Shown here piece after piece: positions 8,425 through 36,286 of a stretch of DNA of 47,083 nt (its first letter is position 1; each line of letters starts with the position of its first letter). The position numbers and the translations under genes were made by a program. A model generated the notes under the pieces. The model was not told the DNA's origin and did no database searches. It worked only from the letters and a program-made list of their open reading frames with translations. This DNA is from Cognatilysobacter segetis (GTDB taxonomy: Bacteria > Pseudomonadota > Gammaproteobacteria > Xanthomonadales > Xanthomonadaceae): positions 1 through 47,083 of the forward strand of contig NZ_SMRQ01000026.1 in the NCBI RefSeq assembly GCF_004359965.1, in the 5' to 3' direction.

Positions 8425-9020
8425 GCCGGGGTCTCCAGCCGCTCGCGAAGGCGCGCGTCGATCGCGGGCCATTCGTCGCGAACGATGGAATAGCGGTGCG
8501 TGTGGCGCAGCGTGCCGTCACGGTGGCGCATGTGCGCGCGGAGGATGCCGTCGCGCGCTGCGCCGAGGCGCTCGATCGCGGCCTGCGAACGCAGGTTCAG
8601 ATGGCTGGTCTCGAACGACACCGATTCGCAGCCGAGCACGTCGAATGCGTGAGACAGAAGCAGGCGCTTGGCGGCCGTATTCAGGCCGGTGCGCTGCGCG
8701 CGCCGCGCATACCAGGTGTAGCCGATATGAAGCGTCGGCACGGACCGGTCGATGTCGTAGTAGCGCGTGGTGCCGACGACCTCGCCCGCCGCGTCGAGGA
8801 CGACGAACGGCATCGAATCCCCGGCGTCGCGAAGCGACAGCGCACCCCGCACGTAGTCCGCTTCCTCGCCCGGCGCGGGCACGCTGGTGAACGCGAGCGT
8901 CCACAGCTCGCCATCGGCCGCGGCTCGCGCCAGTGGCGCCGCATGCTCGGGCTGCAGCGGCAGCAGCGACACGTGCCCGTCGCGTAGCCAGGGCGTGCGC
9001 CAGCGGTCGACGTCCGTCAT
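8421..9020 (-). CDS. GNAT-family N-acetyltransferase embedded in the arg operon
   Basis: 199-residue acetyltransferase of the RimJ/RimL type. Features seen: [16 protein letters not shown] at the N-terminus, a central strand with [19 protein letters not shown], the sheet HIGYTWY, and the acetyl-CoA loop-like [17 protein letters not shown] (about 125-140), followed by [13 protein letters not shown], the usual C-terminal helix of RimL proteins. It overlaps both neighbours by four bases (ATGA on each side), which ties its expression to arginine synthesis. The upstream kinase-synthase already supplies acetylglutamate, so this enzyme is not needed for the known pathway; its substrate is unknown. 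The family could acetylate protein N-termini, amino acids or small molecules. Confidence 0.82.
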
Positions 9021-10345
9021 CGCGGATCCTCCAGCGACGGGGGGTGCGACGCGCAGTACTCGACGCAGCCGGCGATGGTGGCCATGTCCTCGATGCCGTA
9101 CCAGAAGACCTGCCACGGCCCGCGGCGGATGCTGCCGTCCGACTCGCCCATGTAGAAGCCGTTCACCGGATTGCCGCGACGCGACCGCCAGAACAGGGCC
9201 GGCGTCTCGTCGCGCATGACCTGCCAGACCGCCCGGCCGAGACCCTCGCCCTGCGCCTCGTCGAGCACGGCGAACTTGTCGAGGTACGGCATGCCGTTCT
9301 CGAACGTCAGGATCACCGCGGCCCGGTAGTTCTCGCTGACGTAGGCGCGGTGCAGCGTCTTCCTCCCGAAATAGTCGGGCAGAAGGCGCCGGCCGAAGGC
9401 GGACTCGATCAGGTCGCGCAGGCGCTCGAGGTCGAGGCCGGCCCACGCGTCGGCCCGCAGCACCCGTTCGCCGCGGCGTACCAGCGTTCCCGAGCCGCGA
9501 TGGGTGAACAGCTCCTTGGCGAGCTCCGCCGGGCGCGTGATCGATACCGACGACGCCAGCGGCAGCGCTTCCAGAAGCTCGCGGATCTGTTCGATCTTCA
9601 GGCGCATTCCGCCCGTCAGCCAAGGCTGCGCCAGCAGGTGCTCGTACTCGGTCGACAGGTTGATCGAATCGATCACGTTGCCGTCGCCGTCCAGCAGGCC
9701 GCCGGTGCCGGTCAGGAACACGATCTTGTACGGCTGGAGTTCCCGCACGAGCTCGTTCGCCGCGTAGTCGGCGTTGACGTTGACGATCTGCCCTTCGATC
9801 GTTTCGCCGAGGCTGGCGATCACCGGGATGGACCCGACGCGCAGCGCGGCCTTGATCGGTGCCAGCTCGACGCGCTTCACGCGGCCGACCAGGCCCAGGC
9901 GCTCGCGATCGATGAACTCCGATTCGAACACGCCGGAGACGATCGAGGTCGAGCGCGCGCCGGCTTCCTGCAAGGCTTCGGCAAGACGCAGGTTCTGCGC
10001 CTGCATCACGCGCCGCACGATCGCGAGGCCTTCCGGCGTCGTCACGCGCAGGCCGTCGACGGTCTCCTTGGTAATCCCGGCGGCCGCCATCTCCTCGTCG
10101 AGCTGCGGCCCCGCGCCATGCACGACGATCGGCGTCAGGCCCACGTCCTGCAGGAAGGCGAGCGAGGACGACAGCGCATCGAGATCGTCGCGCAACACCG
10201 CGCCACCCACTTTCACCACCGCGAAGCGTTCGGCGTCGAGCTGCGCGAAGCGGCGCAGGTACTGGTCGATCTCCTTCGCGCTGCCCATGCTCGAGAGCAG
10301 GCGCACGATGGTCTGCCGGGTCTGGATGTCTTCGATCGGCGTCAT
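9017..10345 (-). CDS. argB: Bifunctional N-acetylglutamate kinase-synthase
   Basis: Makes N-acetylglutamate and phosphorylates it, the first two arginine steps, in one 442-residue chain as described for Xanthomonas and related to vertebrate NAGS. The amino-acid kinase domain runs from about 25 to 285: [11 protein letters not shown] (phosphate loop), [10 protein letters not shown], and [11 protein letters not shown] with [11 protein letters not shown]. The C-terminal GNAT-like synthase domain (about 295-442) holds [29 protein letters not shown] (acetyl-CoA loop) and [11 protein letters not shown]. The start MTPIEDIQ overlaps the deacetylase stop; the stop overlaps the GNAT start. This fusion means no separate argA is needed. 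Arginine feedback is usual in the family. Confidence 0.94.
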
Positions 10346-11436
10346 GCCGGCGTGTTTCCGATGATGCGGGCCGCGTGCGCGGCATAGGTGTCGAGCTGGT
10401 CGAGGGCGACCCATTCGTCGGCGGTGTGCGCCTGCGCGATGTCGCCGGGGCCGAACACGAAAGCGGTCAGGCCGGCCTGCGAGAACAGCGAGGCTTCTGT
10501 CCAGAAGTCGACGGCGTTGCCGATCGGCAGGCCGAGCTCGTCGGCGAGATCGCGTGCGGCGAGACGCTGGCGTTCGGCTTCGTGCAGCACGCCTGCAGGC
10601 AGCGGCGGACCGCGGAAGGTTTCCTCGTAGGCGTCGAGTTCGCCCTCGCCGGCCAAGCCCTGCAACGTTGCGTGCATCGCGTCGATGTCCATCGAGGGCA
10701 GTGGGCGGAAGTTGAAGCGCAGCTCACCACTGGGCGCGATCACGTTGCCCTTGATGCCACCCGCCATGGTGCCGATGTTGAAGCGCAGCCCCGTCAGCCC
10801 GCCGAAGCGCTCGTGCGCGAGCGACTGCGCGTGGTCGAGCGCGCGAACGCCCCAGCGCATCGCGCGATGCACGGCGCTGAGCTGCATGGCGTTCGGCGAG
10901 GACGCGTGGCCGGCCTCGCCACGGAAGGCGATGCGCGCGGAGCTCAGGCCGCGATGCGCGAGCACGGCTTCGCAGTTCGTCGGTTCCGCGATCAGCGCTT
11001 CGCTGAAGCCGTGGTCGCTCGCGAGGAAGGCGGCGATGCACCGCGGGTCGTTGGCTTCCTCGTCCGTCGAGAACAGGAACGCGGCATCGCCCGTCGTCAC
11101 CGCGGCCGCAGCGAGCAGACACGCAGCCGCGCCCTTGATGTCGCATGCGCCGAGCCCGATCGCGCGGTCACCCTCGACGCGCAGGCGCAAGGGATCGTCC
11201 GACCACGCGGCGGACGATGGCACGGTATCGAGGTGCACGTTGAACAGCCGCGCCGGGCGACCGCGCACGGCGAGCATCGACACCGCACCCGCGCCGTGAT
11301 CGTTCACCTGTATCTGGAACCCCGGCAGCTGCGCGCGCAGGTAGTCGAAGATGCCGTCGGTGCCGATCGCGCGCGGCGGATTGCGGGTGTCGAACGCGAC
11401 CAGCGCCTCCAGGTGGCGGAGCACCGCCTCACGCAT
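10342..11436 (-). CDS. argE': M20 deacetylase, acetylcitrulline/acetylornithine type
   Basis: In xanthomonads this M20 zinc peptidase removes acetate from N-acetylcitrulline after the acetylated transcarbamylase step. 364 residues. Metal ligands and catalytic residues visible: HLDTVP (about 68-73), GLGACDIKG (about 92-100, bridging Asp), STDEEANDP (catalytic Glu and metal Glu, near 123-131), AEPTNCEAV, and a C-terminal HTADEWV His. The dimerisation domain with [11 protein letters not shown] lies mid-protein. The start overlaps the argG stop by eight bases. Its neighbour is acetylornithine transcarbamylase, so acetylcitrulline is the likely substrate; the sequence alone cannot exclude acetylornithine. 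Confidence 0.92.
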
Positions 11437-12661
11437 CGGACGTCGCTCCGGTCACTTCTGCCCACAACGTGCTGCTCATGCCGAACAGCTTGATGAAGCC
11501 TTCCGCTTCTTCGACGCCCCAGTCGGCCGACTGCGCATACGTCGCGCCCTTGGCGTTGAGCAGGTGCGGCGACTTCACGGCGACGGCGTCGACGCGCGCG
11601 CCATGCGTTTCCAGCACGACGTCGCCGTTGACGGTGCGCTGCGAACTCGCGAGGAACGCTTCGAGGTCGGTCTTGAGCGGATCGTGGAAGAAGCCTTCGT
11701 AGACCAGCTCCACCCACTTGCGCGCCACATCGGGCTTGAAGCGGTTCTGCTGCTTGGTCAGCACCGCTTCCTCGAGCGCGCGGTGCGCGGTGAGCAGCGC
11801 GGTGATGCCCGGCGCCTCGAACACGATGCGGCCCTTGAGCCCGATCGTCGTATCGCCGGTGTACATGCCGCGACCGACACCGTAGGCCGCGAACATCGTG
11901 TTGAGCTTGGCCAGCATGGCGTGCCCCGGCATCGACACGCCGTCGAGCGTCACCGCCTCACCATTGCGGAAGCCGATCGCAACGCGCAGCGGCTGCTCCG
12001 GCCAGGCCTCGCGCGGCGCGCACCAGCCCCGCGCACCCTCGCCCGGCGCCTCCCACTTGTCGATCTCGCCGCCCGACAGCGTCACGCCGAGCACGTTCTC
12101 GTTGATCGTGTAGCTCTGCTGCTTGGCGCGCACGCCGAAGCCGCGTTCCTCGAGGTACTTCTGCTCGTACGCGCGCGTCTGCGTGTGTTCCTTCTGGATC
12201 TCGCGGATCGGCGCCACGATGCGGTACGTGCCCTGCGCCTTCACCGCGAGGTCGAAACGCACCTGGTCGTTGCCCATGCCCGTGCAGCCGTGGGCGATCG
12301 CGTCGGTGCCGAGTTCCTTGCAGCGCTGCAGCGCGGCGTCGACAATCAGGTAGCGATCCGACACCAGCAGCGGGTACTGGCCCTGATAGCCCTCGCCCGC
12401 CTGCACGAACGGCTTGACGAAGCCGTTCCAGATCGCGGGGCCGCCGTCGACGGTGACGTGGCTCGCGACGCCGAGCTCCTTCGCGCGTGCCTCGATGAAC
12501 GCTCGCTCCTCGGCGTCGACGCCGCCGGTGTCGGCGAACACGGTGTGCACGTTCCAGCCGCGCTCCTTGAGGTACGGAACGCAGAAGCTGGTGTCGAGGC
12601 CGCCGGAGAAGGCGAGGACGATGTCGCGGGAGGCCGACGGCGCGGTCGATTCGGTGGTCAT
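11429..12661 (-). CDS. argG: Argininosuccinate synthase
   Basis: ATP-dependent condensation of citrulline and aspartate. 410 residues. The PP-loop [12 protein letters not shown] lies at about 17-28, [12 protein letters not shown] near 43, [14 protein letters not shown] near 118-131 (citrulline/aspartate site), and [14 protein letters not shown] near 155. Start ATG is 27 bases downstream of the argF' stop with GAGC/GGAA-type purines ahead. It is second in the operon and overlaps the deacetylase gene by eight bases. Confidence 0.95.
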
Positions 12662-12688
12662 GGAAGGGCTCGGAAAGGAAATTCGGGG

Positions 12689-13699
12689 TCAGGCGCGTTG
12701 CTTGATGAGCGAGGCCATCACGGCCTTCTGCACATGCAGGCGGTTTTCGGCTTCGTCGATCGCGATGCACGCGGGCGAATCCATGACGGCATCGGTCGCC
12801 TTCACGTTGCGGCGCAGCGGCAGGCAATGGCTGAAGACGCCGTTCTTGGTCAGCGCCATCTTCCGTTCGTCGACGATGAAGTGCTTGTACTGGTCGCGGA
12901 TGGGCTTCTCGTCCTGCCAGCGCCCGAAGAACGGGATCGCGCCCCAGCTCTTGGCGTACACGACGTCCGCGCCCGCGTAGGCGCTGTCGATGTCGTGGCT
13001 GACCGTCAGCGAGCCGCCGCTCTCGGCGACGTTCTGCTGGGCCCAGCCCATGTAGCGCTGGTCGAGCAGGTAGTCCGGCGTCGGGCACAGCAACGTCACG
13101 TCCATGCCGAGGCGCGTCGCGATCGTCAGCGCCGAGTTGGCCACGGCCGTGTTGAGCGGCTTGGGGTGGTAGGTCCACGTCAGCACGTACTTCCTGCCGC
13201 GCAGGTCGGCTGTGCCGAAATGCTCCTGCAGCGCGAGTGCGTGCGCGAGTTCCTGGCACGGATGCGTGATCGTCTCCATGTTGATCACCGGCACCGTGGA
13301 GTACTGCGCGAAGGCCTTGAGCACACGGTCCTCGCGGTCGACCGACCAGTCGACGAACTTCGGGAAGGCGCGCACGCCGATCAGGTCGACGTAGCGGGCG
13401 AGCACGCGCGCCACTTCGGCGATGTGCTCCTCGGTGTCGCCGTCCATCACGGTGCCGAGGTCGAACTCGATCGGCCACGCATCCTTGCCCGGCTGCAGCA
13501 CCACGGCGTGGCCGCCCAGTTGGAACGCGCCCAGCTCGAAGCTCGTGCGCGTGCGCATGGACGGGTTGAAGAACACCAGCGCGATGGACTTGCCCTTGAG
13601 CTGGTCGCCGAGCTTGGACGTCTTGAAGGCGGCGGCATCGGCGAGCACCGCGTCGAGTTCGGCGCGGGACCAGTCCTGGGTATTGAGGAAGTGCTTCAT
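12689..13699 (-). CDS. argF': N-acetylornithine carbamoyltransferase
   Basis: Transfers carbamoyl phosphate to N-acetylornithine, giving N-acetylcitrulline. 336 residues, closely similar throughout to the Xanthomonas campestris enzyme as I recall it. Motifs: carbamoyl-phosphate loop SMRTR (47-51), W75 and E90 in the GDTEEH loop (the Glu that distinguishes acetylornithine from succinylornithine enzymes), HPCQ near 145, KPLNTAVANS, and HCLPLRRN near 285. The ATG follows GGAG eight bases upstream. It is the first structural gene after a long leader with an Arg-rich peptide and terminator, so it is probably attenuated by arginine supply. Confidence 0.96.
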   Translation of the reverse strand: MKHFLNTQDWSRAELDAVLADAAAFKTSKLGDQLKGKSIALVFFNPSMRTRTSFELGAFQLGGHAVVLQPGKDAWPIEFDLGTVMDGDTEEHIAEVARVLARYVDLIGVRAFPKFVDWSVDREDRVLKAFAQYSTVPVINMETITHPCQELAHALALQEHFGTADLRGRKYVLTWTYHPKPLNTAVANSALTIATRLGMDVTLLCPTPDYLLDQRYMGWAQQNVAESGGSLTVSHDIDSAYAGADVVYAKSWGAIPFFGRWQDEKPIRDQYKHFIVDERKMALTKNGVFSHCLPLRRNVKATDAVMDSPACIAIDEAENRLHVQKAVMASLIKQRA

Positions 13700-13730
13700 C
13701 GGGGCTCCGGGAGGAAGGTCGCCGGGTCCC

Positions 13731-13763
13731 TGAAACGCAAGAACCCAGCGCGAGGCTGGGTTC
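13731..13763 (-). terminator. Intrinsic terminator in the arg leader (putative attenuator)
   Basis: On the minus strand GAACCCAGC (13763-13755), loop CTCGC, GCTGGGTTC (13749-13741) form a perfect 9-bp hairpin followed by a U-rich but interrupted TTGCGTTTCA. It lies 42 bases upstream of the argF' start and downstream of the leader peptide stop. It could simply terminate the gene at 13937-14344, but its 5' arm is also complementary to the leader end. Confidence 0.72.
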
Positions 13764-13803
13764 GAGTCTGACGCCGAAAGGCGAAAAGCCGCGTTACCCA
13801 GCC
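13754..13803 (-). promoter_or_regulatory. Putative antiterminator pairing of the arg attenuator
   Basis: GGCTGGGT on the minus strand (13803-13796, covering the last codons and stop of the leader peptide) is perfectly complementary over 8 bp to ACCCAGCC (13761-13754), the 5' arm of the terminator. The two hairpins exclude each other. A ribosome stalled on the early Arg codons would leave the upstream segment free to form the antiterminator. A ribosome that reaches the stop would cover it and allow termination. Confidence 0.65.
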
Positions 13804-13895
13804 GTGTGGCGGGTGCGTCGGCGCGCGCGCGAGGTCATGCCCGCCGCCATGTAGGCGGAGGTCAGGATGTCGGCGTCGGCGTAGTCGGTGCGCAT
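13794..13895 (-). CDS. Arg-rich leader peptide of the arg operon (putative)
   Basis: A 33-codon frame ending with TAA. Its C-terminal part reads MTSRARRRTRHTAG: five Arg in seven residues (codons 23-29 of the full frame; CGC, CGC, CGA, CGC, CGC). Possible starts are Met1 (13895), Met16 (13850) and Met20 (13838, giving a 14-residue peptide); none has a strong Shine-Dalgarno site. The predicted transcription start is only a few bases before Met1, so leaderless initiation is possible. Position between a candidate promoter and the terminator ahead of argF', and the Arg codon cluster, match the design of classical attenuator leader peptides. Not verified by expression or conservation. Confidence 0.6.
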   Translation of the reverse strand: MRTDYADADILTSAYMAAGMTSRARRRTRHTAG

Positions 13896-13905
13896 GCGGG
13901 CGGCG

Positions 13906-13934
13906 ATTCTGCGGCCTGCGGGCGGTCGATGCAA
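13906..13934 (-). promoter_or_regulatory. Candidate promoter of the arg operon
   Basis: Minus strand TTGCAT (13934-13929), 17-bp spacer, CAGAAT (13911-13906). The -10 matches four of six consensus bases and the spacing is ideal. The predicted start near 13899 falls just ahead of the leader peptide. Confidence 0.4.
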
Positions 13935-13936
13935 GG

Positions 13937-14344
13937 TCAGGGTGCCGGCATCACGGAAATGCGGATCCGCAACAGGTGGCCCGGATCGTCGGCCAGCCGT
14001 GAGCGGTACTTCGCGCCGCGGTAGGTGTAGTCGACGTCGTAGGCGACCGGCCGCCGGAACTGGCGTTCGACCGGCACGGTGCGGCAGTCCTCGCCCGACT
14101 GGTTCCGCTCGCGCTCGCGCTTGAGCACGCTGCGCACGGCGCCGAGGGCACGGGAAACACGGGAGCCGTCCTCGCACCGCGTCTCGACGCTCGTGGCCGT
14201 CAGGGTCTGGTAGACCGGCGTCACCCGCAGCACCCGCGCGTATTCGTAGCGGACGTTCTCGCGCTGGACCACGGTTTCGGCGGAGGCGGTCGCCGCGGCG
14301 ATGGACAGCAGGAGCGCGATGAACGGCAGCGTTCGACGTCGCAA
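13937..14344 (-). CDS. Small exported protein, UmoD-like
   Basis: 135 residues from a TTG start with GGAGAG six bases upstream. Residues 1-23 form a Sec signal peptide (LRRRTLPFIALLLSIAAATA then SAE). The mature part has the pattern YEYARVLRVTPVYQTL, an Arg-rich mid section with two Cys (in TRCEDG and EDCRTV), and a C-terminal YDVDYTYRGAKYRSRL strand-like repeat. This arrangement resembles the UmoD/glycine-zipper-associated proteins common in xanthomonads; I hold that assignment loosely. Longer upstream in-frame Met codons would run into the divergent cysS leader and lack ribosome sites. A -10-like TACACT sits at 14380-14375. It is followed by the arg leader on the same strand. Confidence 0.65.
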   Translation of the reverse strand: MRRRTLPFIALLLSIAAATASAETVVQRENVRYEYARVLRVTPVYQTLTATSVETRCEDGSRVSRALGAVRSVLKRERERNQSGEDCRTVPVERQFRRPVAYDVDYTYRGAKYRSRLADDPGHLLRIRISVMPAP

Positions 14345-14455
14345 GGCGGGCTCTCCGCGGGGCTCGGACCGGGAAGTGTATGCGGGCCGCGGCGAACCCC
14401 GATGAATGCCCCCTGTCCCCGCCCGGTCCGCCGCGGGCCGCGGGGCACGCGCCGG

Positions 14456-14461
14456 TACAAT
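14456..14461 (+). promoter_or_regulatory. Candidate -10 element of cysS
   Basis: TACAAT 34 bases before the cysS ATG, in an otherwise very GC-rich gap. No clear -35 is visible 17 bases upstream. Confidence 0.45.
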
Positions 14462-14495
14462 GGCCGGCTCGCCGCCACGCGACGCACCCGCGCCC

Positions 14496-15878
14496 ATGAG
14501 CCTGCACCTGTACAACAGCCTGACCCGCCGGCTGGAGCCGTTCGAGCCGCTCGATGCGTCCTGCCCGACGATGTACGTCTGCGGGCCGACCGTCTACAAC
14601 TACGTGCACATCGGCAACGCGCGCCCCTACGTCGTGTTCGGCGTGCTCGCCGAGCTGCTGCGCCGTCGCTACGGTGCGGTGCGCTACGTGCGCAACATCA
14701 CCGACGTCGACGACAAGATCAACAACGCCGCGCGCGAGCTCGGCGTACCGATCTCGGCGATCACCGATCGCTACGCCGCCGCCTTCCGCGACGACATGGC
14801 GGCGATCGGCGCCGTCGCCCCCGATGCGGAGCCGACGGTCACCGGCCACATCCCGCAGATCGTCGCGATGATCGAACGCCTGATCGCCTCCGGCCATGCG
14901 TACGCGGCCGAAAACCACGTGCTGTTCTCGGTCGGCTCGTTCGACAGCTACGGCAAGCTCTCGCGCCGCGACCGCGACGAGATGATCGCCGGCGCCCGCA
15001 TCGACGTGGCGCCGTACAAGCGTGACCCGGGCGATTTCGTGCTCTGGAAGCCGTCGACCGACGACCTGCCCGGCTGGGAGTCGCCCTGGGGCCGCGGCCG
15101 CCCGGGCTGGCACATCGAGTGCTCGGCGATGGCCGAGGCGCTGCTGGGCGAGACCATCGACATCCATGCCGGCGGCGTGGACCTGCAGTTCCCGCACCAC
15201 GAGAACGAGATCGCGCAGAGCGAGTGCGCGCACGGCGGGCGCATTTTCGCGCGCTACTGGCTGCACAACGGCATGCTCAACTTCGGCGGCGCGAAGATGA
15301 GCAAGTCGATCGGCAACATCGAGAAGATCCACGACCTCGTTGCGAAGCACCCGCCCGAGGCCCTGCGCTACGCCCTGCTCTCCGCGCACTACCGCCAGCC
15401 GCTGGAATGGTCGGAGGGGGTCATCGAGCAGTGCGTGCGCACGCTGGACCGGCTGTACGGCACGCTGCGCGACCTCGGCGACGTGCCGGCGGCCGCCGCG
15501 ATTCCGGCCGCCGTCGAACAGGCGCTCGACGAGGACCTCAACACGCCGCAGGCGCTGGCGATCCTCAATGAGCTCGCCCGTGACGCCCGCGCGGCGCTCG
15601 CGGCGGGCGATGCCGATCCGTCCCGCCTGGCGCCGCTGAAATCCGCACTGCTGGGCGCGGGTCTCGCGCTCGGCCTGCTGCAGCAGGCGCCCGCCGACTG
15701 GTTTGGCCGGGGCGCGGGCGACGGTGACGACGGGCGCATCAGCGCCCTCGTGGAGGAGCGCACCGCCGCCAAGAAGTCGCGCGATTTCGCCCGCGCCGAC
15801 GCCATACGCGACGCTCTCGCCGCGGAGGGCATCCTGCTCGAGGACACCGCGGCCGGCGTGCGCTGGCGCCGCGCCTGA
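14496..15878 (+). CDS. cysS: Cysteinyl-tRNA synthetase
   Basis: Charges tRNA-Cys. 460 residues, the usual length. Class I signatures: HIGN at 38-41 in the [11 protein letters not shown] block, and KMSKS in [10 protein letters not shown] near 267-271. Zinc ligands expected of the family are visible as C29, the Cys in HIECSAM (about 209), and His/Glu in FPHHENE (about 234-238). The helical C-terminal domain follows. I chose the internal ATG giving [12 protein letters not shown] because this matches the family; the longer frame to 14406 would overlap the promoter. sufE starts 10 bases after the stop. Confidence 0.96.
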
Positions 15879-36021: not shown

Positions 36022-36097
<76 letters not shown>

Positions 36098-36111
36098 ACG
36101 GTGGGACGCGC

Positions 36112-36141
36112 AGTGTAACGGGGCGACGGCCGTCCTGCCAA
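36112..36141 (-). promoter_or_regulatory. Candidate promoter of tRNA-Ala
   Basis: Minus strand TTGGCA (36141-36136), 18-bp spacer, TACACT (36117-36112); the tRNA 5' end is 15 bases past the -10. Both boxes match well for a GC-rich genome. Confidence 0.6.
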
Positions 36142-36209
36142 GCGGTCGGCAGCGGCCCGGAACGTGATTAACGGCACGGTCCGCGTCCGTGCGAAAATCG
36201 CCCGCTTGG

Positions 36210-36286
36210 GGCCCCGTAGCTCAGCTGGATAGAGCGTCCCCCTCCTAAGGGGAAGGTCGCACGTTCGAATCGTGTCGGGGCTGCCA
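36210..36286 (+). tRNA. tRNA-Arg (anticodon CCT)
   Basis: 77 bases including encoded CCA. Acceptor GGCCCCG pairs with CGGGGCT (terminal G-T), discriminator G. Anticodon stem TCCCC/GGGGA with loop CTCCTAA gives anticodon CCT, reading AGG. T-arm GCACGTTCGAATCGTGT. It is divergent from tRNA-Ala with about 110 bases between; a GAAAAT box at 36193-36198 may be its -10. Confidence 0.95.

Follow-up and report, generated by a model that had tools for sequence, protein, structure and literature searches.

Ribosome-mediated transcription attenuators control the trp, his, leu, ilv and thr operons. They are composed of a leader ORF with codons for the operon product, a mutually exclusive choice between 2:3 and 3:4 pairing, and a terminator located before the biosynthetic genes. 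The trpL leader peptide of Sinorhizobium belongs to such an attenuator and is reportedly also translated from a leaderless end. In fungi, arginine synthesis is under the arginine attenuator peptide, an arginine-sensing leader peptide. Salmonella senses arginine through ribosome pausing in orf34 of the speF leader, a 34-codon ORF with two consecutive Arg codons (PMC6386406). The speF leader acts on ornithine decarboxylase by way of Rho, RNase G and mRNA structure, and the authors, in the relevant passages, saw no intrinsic terminator in it (PMC6386406). A search of the open-access literature yielded no arginine attenuator before an arginine biosynthetic operon. Xanthomonas oryzae pv. oryzae expresses a small RNA of 124 nt, sRNA-Xoo5, with a 5' end set by 5' RACE (PMC3039613, Table 2), which is located between PXO_00354 and PXO_00353, the latter encoding N-acetylornithine carbamoyltransferase (PMC3039613).

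This work describes the leader of the argF' operon in Cognatilysobacter segetis, which we interpret as a ribosome-mediated transcription attenuator sensing charged arginyl-tRNA (probability about 0.86). The window is the whole stretch of DNA analysed (47,083 nucleotides, contig NZ_SMRQ01000026.1). The leader region, its parts and the arg genes are all encoded on the minus strand:

13929..13934, minus strand: -35 element TTGCAT (sequence reading and conserved site)
13906..13911, minus strand: -10 element CAGAAT (sequence reading and conserved site)
13896..13898, minus strand: predicted transcription start, ~2 nt 5' of the leader ATG (by analogy with Xoo5)
13794..13895, minus strand: leader peptide ORF, 33 codons plus TAA (start conserved relative to the promoter)
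13809..13829, minus strand: regulatory Arg codon cluster CGC GCG CGC CGA CGC ACC CGC (SRARR conserved)
13808..13822, minus strand: segment 1, 5' side of the 1:2 hairpin (fold and pair counts)
13788..13803, minus strand: segment 2, with the antiterminator strand GGCTGGGT at 13803-13796 (complementarity, folding)
13754..13761, minus strand: segment 3, ACCCAGCC, partner of segment 2 or segment 4 (complementarity, folding)
13741..13763, minus strand: intrinsic terminator hairpin (3:4), 9 bp (terminator scan, pair counts)
13732..13740, minus strand: poor T-containing tract 3' of the terminator, TTGCGTTTC (terminator scan)
12689..13699, minus strand: argF', N-acetylornithine carbamoyltransferase, first gene controlled (NF003384, 2.7e-191)
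11429..12661, minus strand: argG, argininosuccinate synthase (NF003385, 2.9e-233)
10342..11436, minus strand: argE-type deacetylase, matching an acetylornithine deacetylase model (NF006439, 4.3e-170)
9017..10414, minus strand: acetylglutamate kinase with N-acetyltransferase domain, start codon uncertain (NF003386, 1.9e-230; PF04768)

The amino acid that would be sensed is the product of the operon, which comprises argF', argG, the deacetylase and acetylglutamate kinase. A sequence-only reading had already proposed the attenuator, and its coordinates for the leader parts were all right on re-reading. Its candidate promoter, TTGCAT (13934-13929) and CAGAAT (13911-13906) with a 17-nt spacer, is correctly placed, and a generic sigma-70 scan of 12600-14600 under stricter criteria listed no promoter. 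Relatives were collected by a protein search with at least 571 results, from which the best 80 loci were kept, giving 81 sequences with the window. A promoter-like site (TTGN, 17 or 18 nt, NANNNT) is present 6-10 nt upstream of the leader start in all 81, and the same rule found such a site in 19 of 4050 shuffled upstream stretches. Just upstream of the -35 box ends a frame of the same orientation (13937-14515, minus strand; 192 aa as listed, true start uncertain), from which read-through into the leader is possible. Elsewhere in the window, at 36022-36286, tRNA-Ala (cgc) and tRNA-Arg (cct) genes are adjacent on opposite strands.

The leader ORF had been given 14 codons, counted from an internal ATG. 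Most likely it has 33 (13895-13794), with the translation MRTDYADADILTSAYMAAGMTSRARRRTRHTAG and the stop codon TAA at 13796-13794. ATG 13895 is preferred because the matching start sits 6-10 nt behind the -10-like box in 81/81 sequences. The rule for choosing starts favoured a distance to the conserved Ser of 17-24 codons; the selected starts lie 19-24 codons upstream of it, and five of the 81 are GTG or TTG. A Shine-Dalgarno-like 4-mer occurs 18-4 nt before the start in 40/81 sequences, in a stretch that overlaps the -10 box. By analogy with the orthologous RNA, which has its 5' end ~2 nt before the AUG, the leader appears to be nearly leaderless. The peptide has no Pfam family match.

Five of seven consecutive codons encode Arg (CGC-GCG-CGC-CGA-CGC-ACC-CGC, 13829-13809), as the sequence-only reading had observed. 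All 81 sequences (80 loci and the window) have a terminator and a leader frame that contains SRARR and ends in a stop codon, and the SRARR codons are conserved with synonymous changes. The cluster's first two Arg codons are either CGC or CGT, while the last Arg of the motif is CGA in 81/81. Among 1370 Arg codons counted in the 80 argF' genes (first 330 codons of each), 0.7% are CGA. Its invariance is no selection effect, because the detection pattern that demanded CGA missed no locus. Overall, the leader ORF is rich in codons for the operon product: Arg content is 13.0% in the 81 leaders versus 5.2% in the argF' genes of the 80 loci, again over their first 330 codons.

Conservation extends beyond Arg. 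A(-8), A(-5) and S(0) are found in 81/81 sequences, M(-2) in 80/81 and T(-1) in 79/81, and the Ala between the Arg residues of SRARR is found in 81/81 with three codons used, while third codon positions vary. Such residue-level conservation with synonymous drift is a suggestive sign of arrest-peptide sensing. The peptide A-x-M-A-S-G-M-T-S-R-A-R-R might act in the exit tunnel as a nascent-peptide sensor, stalling upon arginine or ornithine binding, or more strongly at R-A-R-R, and not through slow decoding of the codons alone. The invariant CGA argues against this, as it points to the codon and not to the residue alone, and we consider a peptide sensor rather unlikely. Arg-X-Arg motifs are associated with ribosome stalling that depends on macrolides. 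PMC8632094 makes a related point about Arg-Leu-Arg in one passage. The leader includes Arg-Ala-Arg (13809-13829, minus strand), and by analogy macrolides might induce the arg operon.

Both pairings of the proposed attenuator are present as the sequence-only reading had described them. The terminator is a hairpin of nine perfect pairs, GAACCCAGC-ctcgc-GCTGGGTTC (13763-13741), and the 8 nt at 13803-13796 are the exact complement of 13761-13754. The leader of the window folds 2.9 sd better than shuffles. A scan of 12600-14600 found one terminator-like site, with 1.1 expected from shuffles. The single sequence alone is unconvincing, and it is the conservation that makes the observation convincing. 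An intrinsic terminator lies between the leader ORF and argF' in 81/81 sequences, that of the window with a poor U-tract. The antiterminator segment begins at most 7 nt from the stop codon in 81/81. Segment 2 starts 17-24 nt past the first base of CGA in 81/81 (20 or 21 nt in 74/81), which roughly matches how far a stalled ribosome reaches.

The alternative pairing is likewise kept in relatives. At least six contiguous 2:3 pairs (G-U allowed) can form in 75/81 sequences, five in four (L004, L007, L042 and L075) and four in two (L055 and L072, with a C.A mismatch). In 12/81 sequences, the stop codon lies 5' of segment 2, which is non-coding there and still reads GCTGGG. The conservation of segment 2 is not explained by coding, because GCTGGG is kept in these 12 loci without translation. 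Twelve loci carry CCCGGC terminators. In L004, L007, L022, L042, L069 and L075, segment 2 is changed to CCGGG or CGGG, and in L009, L034, L050, L051, L052 and L058 it is unchanged and pairs via G-U.

Conserved pairing was also counted on the family alignment. For 1:2 together with 3:4, 95.3% of cells are paired, versus at most 60.9% in slid controls, with 32 two-sided cells versus 7.1 in shuffles; the 1:2 helices are paired in 93.4% and 90.8%. For 2:3, 94.7% of cells are paired versus at most 53.4% in slid controls. On the family MAFFT register, 2:3 shows no two-sided changes and does not pass the shuffle control, in part because of a one-column shift of the Luteimonas rows in which both sides co-vary. 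When terminator arms were swapped, segment 2 of the CCCGGC group preferred its own arm type (-12.92 versus -11.16 kcal/mol), and segment 2 of the CCCAGC group bound both alike (-14.16 and -14.10 kcal/mol). Within-family swaps discriminate poorly, because GCTGGG pairs with CCCGGC arms about equally via G-U. Compensatory changes, suggested at the outset as a check on both stems, are slight for 2:3 within the family.

Arg-rich frames are common in GC-rich DNA of this kind, and the leader could be such an unrelated frame or an ordinary constitutive terminator. A specificity scan of the window and the 80 loci (both strands, 881,084 bases, 193 terminator-like clusters) indeed found 44 non-leader places with an Arg-rich frame before a terminator-like hairpin. 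At only 5 of these 44 does the complement score to the terminator arm reach 6 or more, versus 75 of the 81 leaders. The comparative data contradict a chance origin, which we reject as almost certainly wrong: conservation is 81/81, the promoter-to-start spacing is fixed, CGA is invariant, and the leader recurs in other families, AT-richer ones included.

Five chosen leaders (the window, L024, L011, L009 and L022) were folded. When the RNA is freed from 13 nt past the CGA and transcribed as far as segment 3, its minimum-energy fold is the antiterminator in 5/5. In the full transcript with the ribosome at the CGA, the antiterminator is still favoured in two leaders, the window and L011, and L024, L009 and L022 prefer the terminator, so that antitermination in most of the folded leaders would have to be settled before segment 4 is made. 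The classical model likewise has antitermination decided before segment 4 is made. With the ribosome at the stop (full RNA freed from 13 nt past it), the terminator forms in 5/5. Ribosome-free RNA up to segment 3 forms 2:3 rather than 1:2 in four of the five leaders, L022 being the exception, and when the full RNA is ribosome-free, L011 alone does not form the terminator. The 2:3 fold of ribosome-free RNA counts against the model, in which a 1:2 hairpin would protect termination when no ribosome stalls.

These parts, with their observed conservation, spacing and folding, would operate as follows. Transcription would start ~2 nt before the leader AUG, and a ribosome would load on the nearly leaderless end and translate the 33-codon peptide behind RNA polymerase. 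When arginine is plentiful, it would reach the stop codon and cover segment 2, upon which the 3:4 terminator would form and a short leader RNA would be released. When arginine is scarce, it would stall at the CGC/CGA cluster and cover segment 1. Segment 2 would then stay free to pair with segment 3, and polymerase would continue into argF', argG and the rest of the operon. The model predicts that the ORF is translated and that ribosomes stall in it; dependence on arginine and the ratio of termination are likewise predictions. The attenuator interpretation gains support from the Arg cluster, the stop, both pairings and the terminator, which are conserved in relatives and in other families, and from these a response to arginine would follow.

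To describe the spread of the leader, a covariance model was searched in 298 genomes of the order, which includes Xanthomonas and Stenotrophomonas. At E 0.001, it matches in 237/298 genomes, including all 104 of the same family, and 237 is an upper figure because some of the non-family matches at this threshold are chance. Among 28 matches checked in 20 non-family genomes, the 12 strongest (E ≤ 4.9e-7) and one weaker lie directly before argF'; the other 15 do not, and are weak (E 4.9e-6 or worse). All eight stretches taken from families f11 and f2 carry the leader before argF' (one of them also among the 28). GMTSRARR or SMTSRARR is kept in 18 loci read from f11, f2 and f3, as a peptide sensor would lead one to expect. 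Counting against that sensor, the motif is gone from the leaders read in f4, f6, f7, f8 and f9, while Arg clusters remain (RRLRRP, RRRRR, NPRRRR).

The leaders of these five families are mostly invisible to the covariance model. An Arg-rich frame with a terminator was found in 23 of the 26 loci read from f4 and f6-f9 (the 26 include one f5 locus). No such leader was seen at argF' of L159 (f5), L175 and L178 (both f9), whose genomes are also without a PF01316 match. L185, the second carbamoyltransferase of an f4 genome, was left unscored. Judging from these sequences, the attenuator design recurs in eight further families, five of which have lost the leader motif and kept the Arg clusters. Within the own genome, the model gave 49 matches at E up to 5. 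The seven that rank behind the leader (E 4.5e-5 to 4.4e-4) are not next to any of the four arg query genes and indicate no second attenuator; the remaining 41 are weaker. Ahead of the putative carA of this genome (601 bases read by eye), no such leader was seen, and the preceding frame is dapB-like.

The 2:3 pairing was compared between families in 43 loci from the eight other families; the position of the segment 2 window was set independently of pairing. Own duplexes have a mean of -16.14 kcal/mol versus -14.49 kcal/mol when swapped between families, and none of 10000 permutations reached the own mean (relatedness uncorrected). When one locus per family was drawn, own 2:3 was better in 1995 of 2000 draws. 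Together with the 75/81 within the family, this argues that the mutually exclusive antiterminator is conserved by pairing. Taken singly, only 28 of 43 loci have an own 2:3 energy no higher than their swap mean, and in 13 of 43 no complement within 12 nt of the chosen stop reached a score of 5.5. A selection-biased variant, in which stops were picked partly by their own complementarity, gave 0/1000 permutations, the same outcome as the fixed window. In L171, L173 and L177, the automatic stop choice took the wrong frame, and the Arg frames are those read directly. Letters are changed on both pairing sides in L171, with GCCAGGTT/AACCTGGC versus GCTGGGT/ACCCAGC elsewhere (the pairing in L171 and L177 is CCAGGTT/AACCTGG). 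In L176 and L180, segment 2 pairs with the terminator loop and arm end instead.

Arginine genes could also be controlled by a DNA-binding repressor, ArgR being a usual arginine regulator in gammaproteobacteria according to a passage of PMC5343134. Alternatively, the leader could hold a T-box or a riboswitch. The repressor search used the PF01316 ArgR domain model only. This domain was found neither in the own genome nor in 149 family genomes, and among 298 genomes of the order it was found in five, all from family f10, and not in the other 293. The f10 carbamoyltransferase is a distant relative (41% identity in two genomes examined), and the two f10 argF' loci examined have no leader before the carbamoyltransferase gene. 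ArgR control was rejected on this distribution. At Rfam thresholds, the window contains no T-box or riboswitch family, and such a leader was rejected as well. We regard this whole group of regulators as improbable here. Arginine reduced the activity of an X. citri carAB reporter to 36%, with the regulator unnamed in the passages concerned (PMC4619228); this shows only that arginine regulates another operon in Xanthomonas.

A permissive Rfam search matched 13888-13775 to RF02242 (Xoo5) with 25.4 bits (E 0.002), a score below the curated cut-off of 50, so that the window by itself does not qualify as a member. Seven of the eight relatives tested match RF02242 above the cut-off over the whole model, L004 being the exception, and it is through these relatives that sequence similarity supports the homology of the window leader to Xoo5. 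The model (124 positions) begins at cu-AUG of the orthologous leader. Its position 1 is taken as the RACE end because the lengths are equal. Xoo5 is an RNA known from cells with a mapped 5' end, for which an attenuator role is proposed here. No paper calling Xoo5 an attenuator was found in the open-access literature, and in the searched text of the Xoo5 paper the words "arginine", "argF" and "leader" are absent, while its tables name the downstream gene (PMC3039613).

Xoo5 could instead be a trans-acting small RNA whose position at the operon is incidental. Rfam files it as an sRNA gene, and the published passages report Northern bands of ~130 and ~100 nt, with both transcripts present early in growth and the shorter alone at later stages (PMC3039613). 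According to the same passages, X. oryzae sRNA deletions including Xoo5 left the expression of flanking genes unaffected, and the Xoo5 deletion was among the strains without a change in growth or virulence (PMC3039613). As deletion of the leader would be expected to change argF' expression, the published deletion counts against the attenuator. So does RNA length: the predicted terminated leader RNA is ~160 nt, and the Northern bands are shorter. The poor U-tract of the window and the six loci with fewer than six contiguous 2:3 pairs count against it too. The 3' end of Xoo5, set by clone, lies before the terminator (PMC3039613), so that processing or truncation is needed to reconcile the two. 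In L024 (1731-1854), the modelled Xoo5 RNA ends between the 1:2 hairpin and the terminator. A trans-acting role nevertheless fits poorly with the location directly before argF' of the strongest other-family matches (12 and one weaker of 28) and of all eight f11 and f2 leaders, with a codon-shaped conservation that includes synonymous drift, and with an Xoo5 level that was reportedly unchanged in an hfq mutant (PMC3039613). We consider this explanation very unlikely, and a cis-acting attenuator remains our preferred reading.

A composite of these readings is conceivable, if doubtful: an order-wide, nearly leaderless attenuator would replace ArgR, in families with the AxMASGMTSRARR motif the nascent peptide would tune or drive stalling at the CGA as part of a combined codon and peptide sensor of arginine, and the released leader RNA, Xoo5, might have a second role in trans. 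The attenuator itself offers a possible answer to how arginine synthesis is controlled in genomes without an ArgR match, in an order that includes Xanthomonas and Stenotrophomonas. Xoo5, so far an orphan among Rfam sRNA families, would gain a likely function, and arginine would join the amino acids that classical transcription attenuators sense. The invariant CGA makes codon choice as the setter of attenuator sensitivity directly testable.

Compared with the known systems, the arg leader is set apart from the fungal arginine attenuator peptide, which is eukaryotic and translational and depends on a nascent-peptide stall at high arginine. It also differs from Sinorhizobium trpL, which senses tryptophan and whose peptide is said to act in trans as well. 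Like speF orf34, it has Arg codons in a short leader ORF, and unlike orf34, it has an intrinsic terminator and precedes a biosynthetic operon. Rfam RF02242 describes the same RNA, with the matches of relatives beginning at the leader AUG, yet it is filed as an sRNA gene and its model stops before the terminator. With the trp, his, leu, ilv and thr attenuators, the arg leader shares clustered product codons, exclusive 2:3 and 3:4 pairing and an intrinsic terminator. It departs from them in sensing arginine, in being nearly leaderless, in placing its antiterminator strand at the stop codon, in a rare CGA that is invariant in 81 sequences, and in the conservation of a wider peptide motif.
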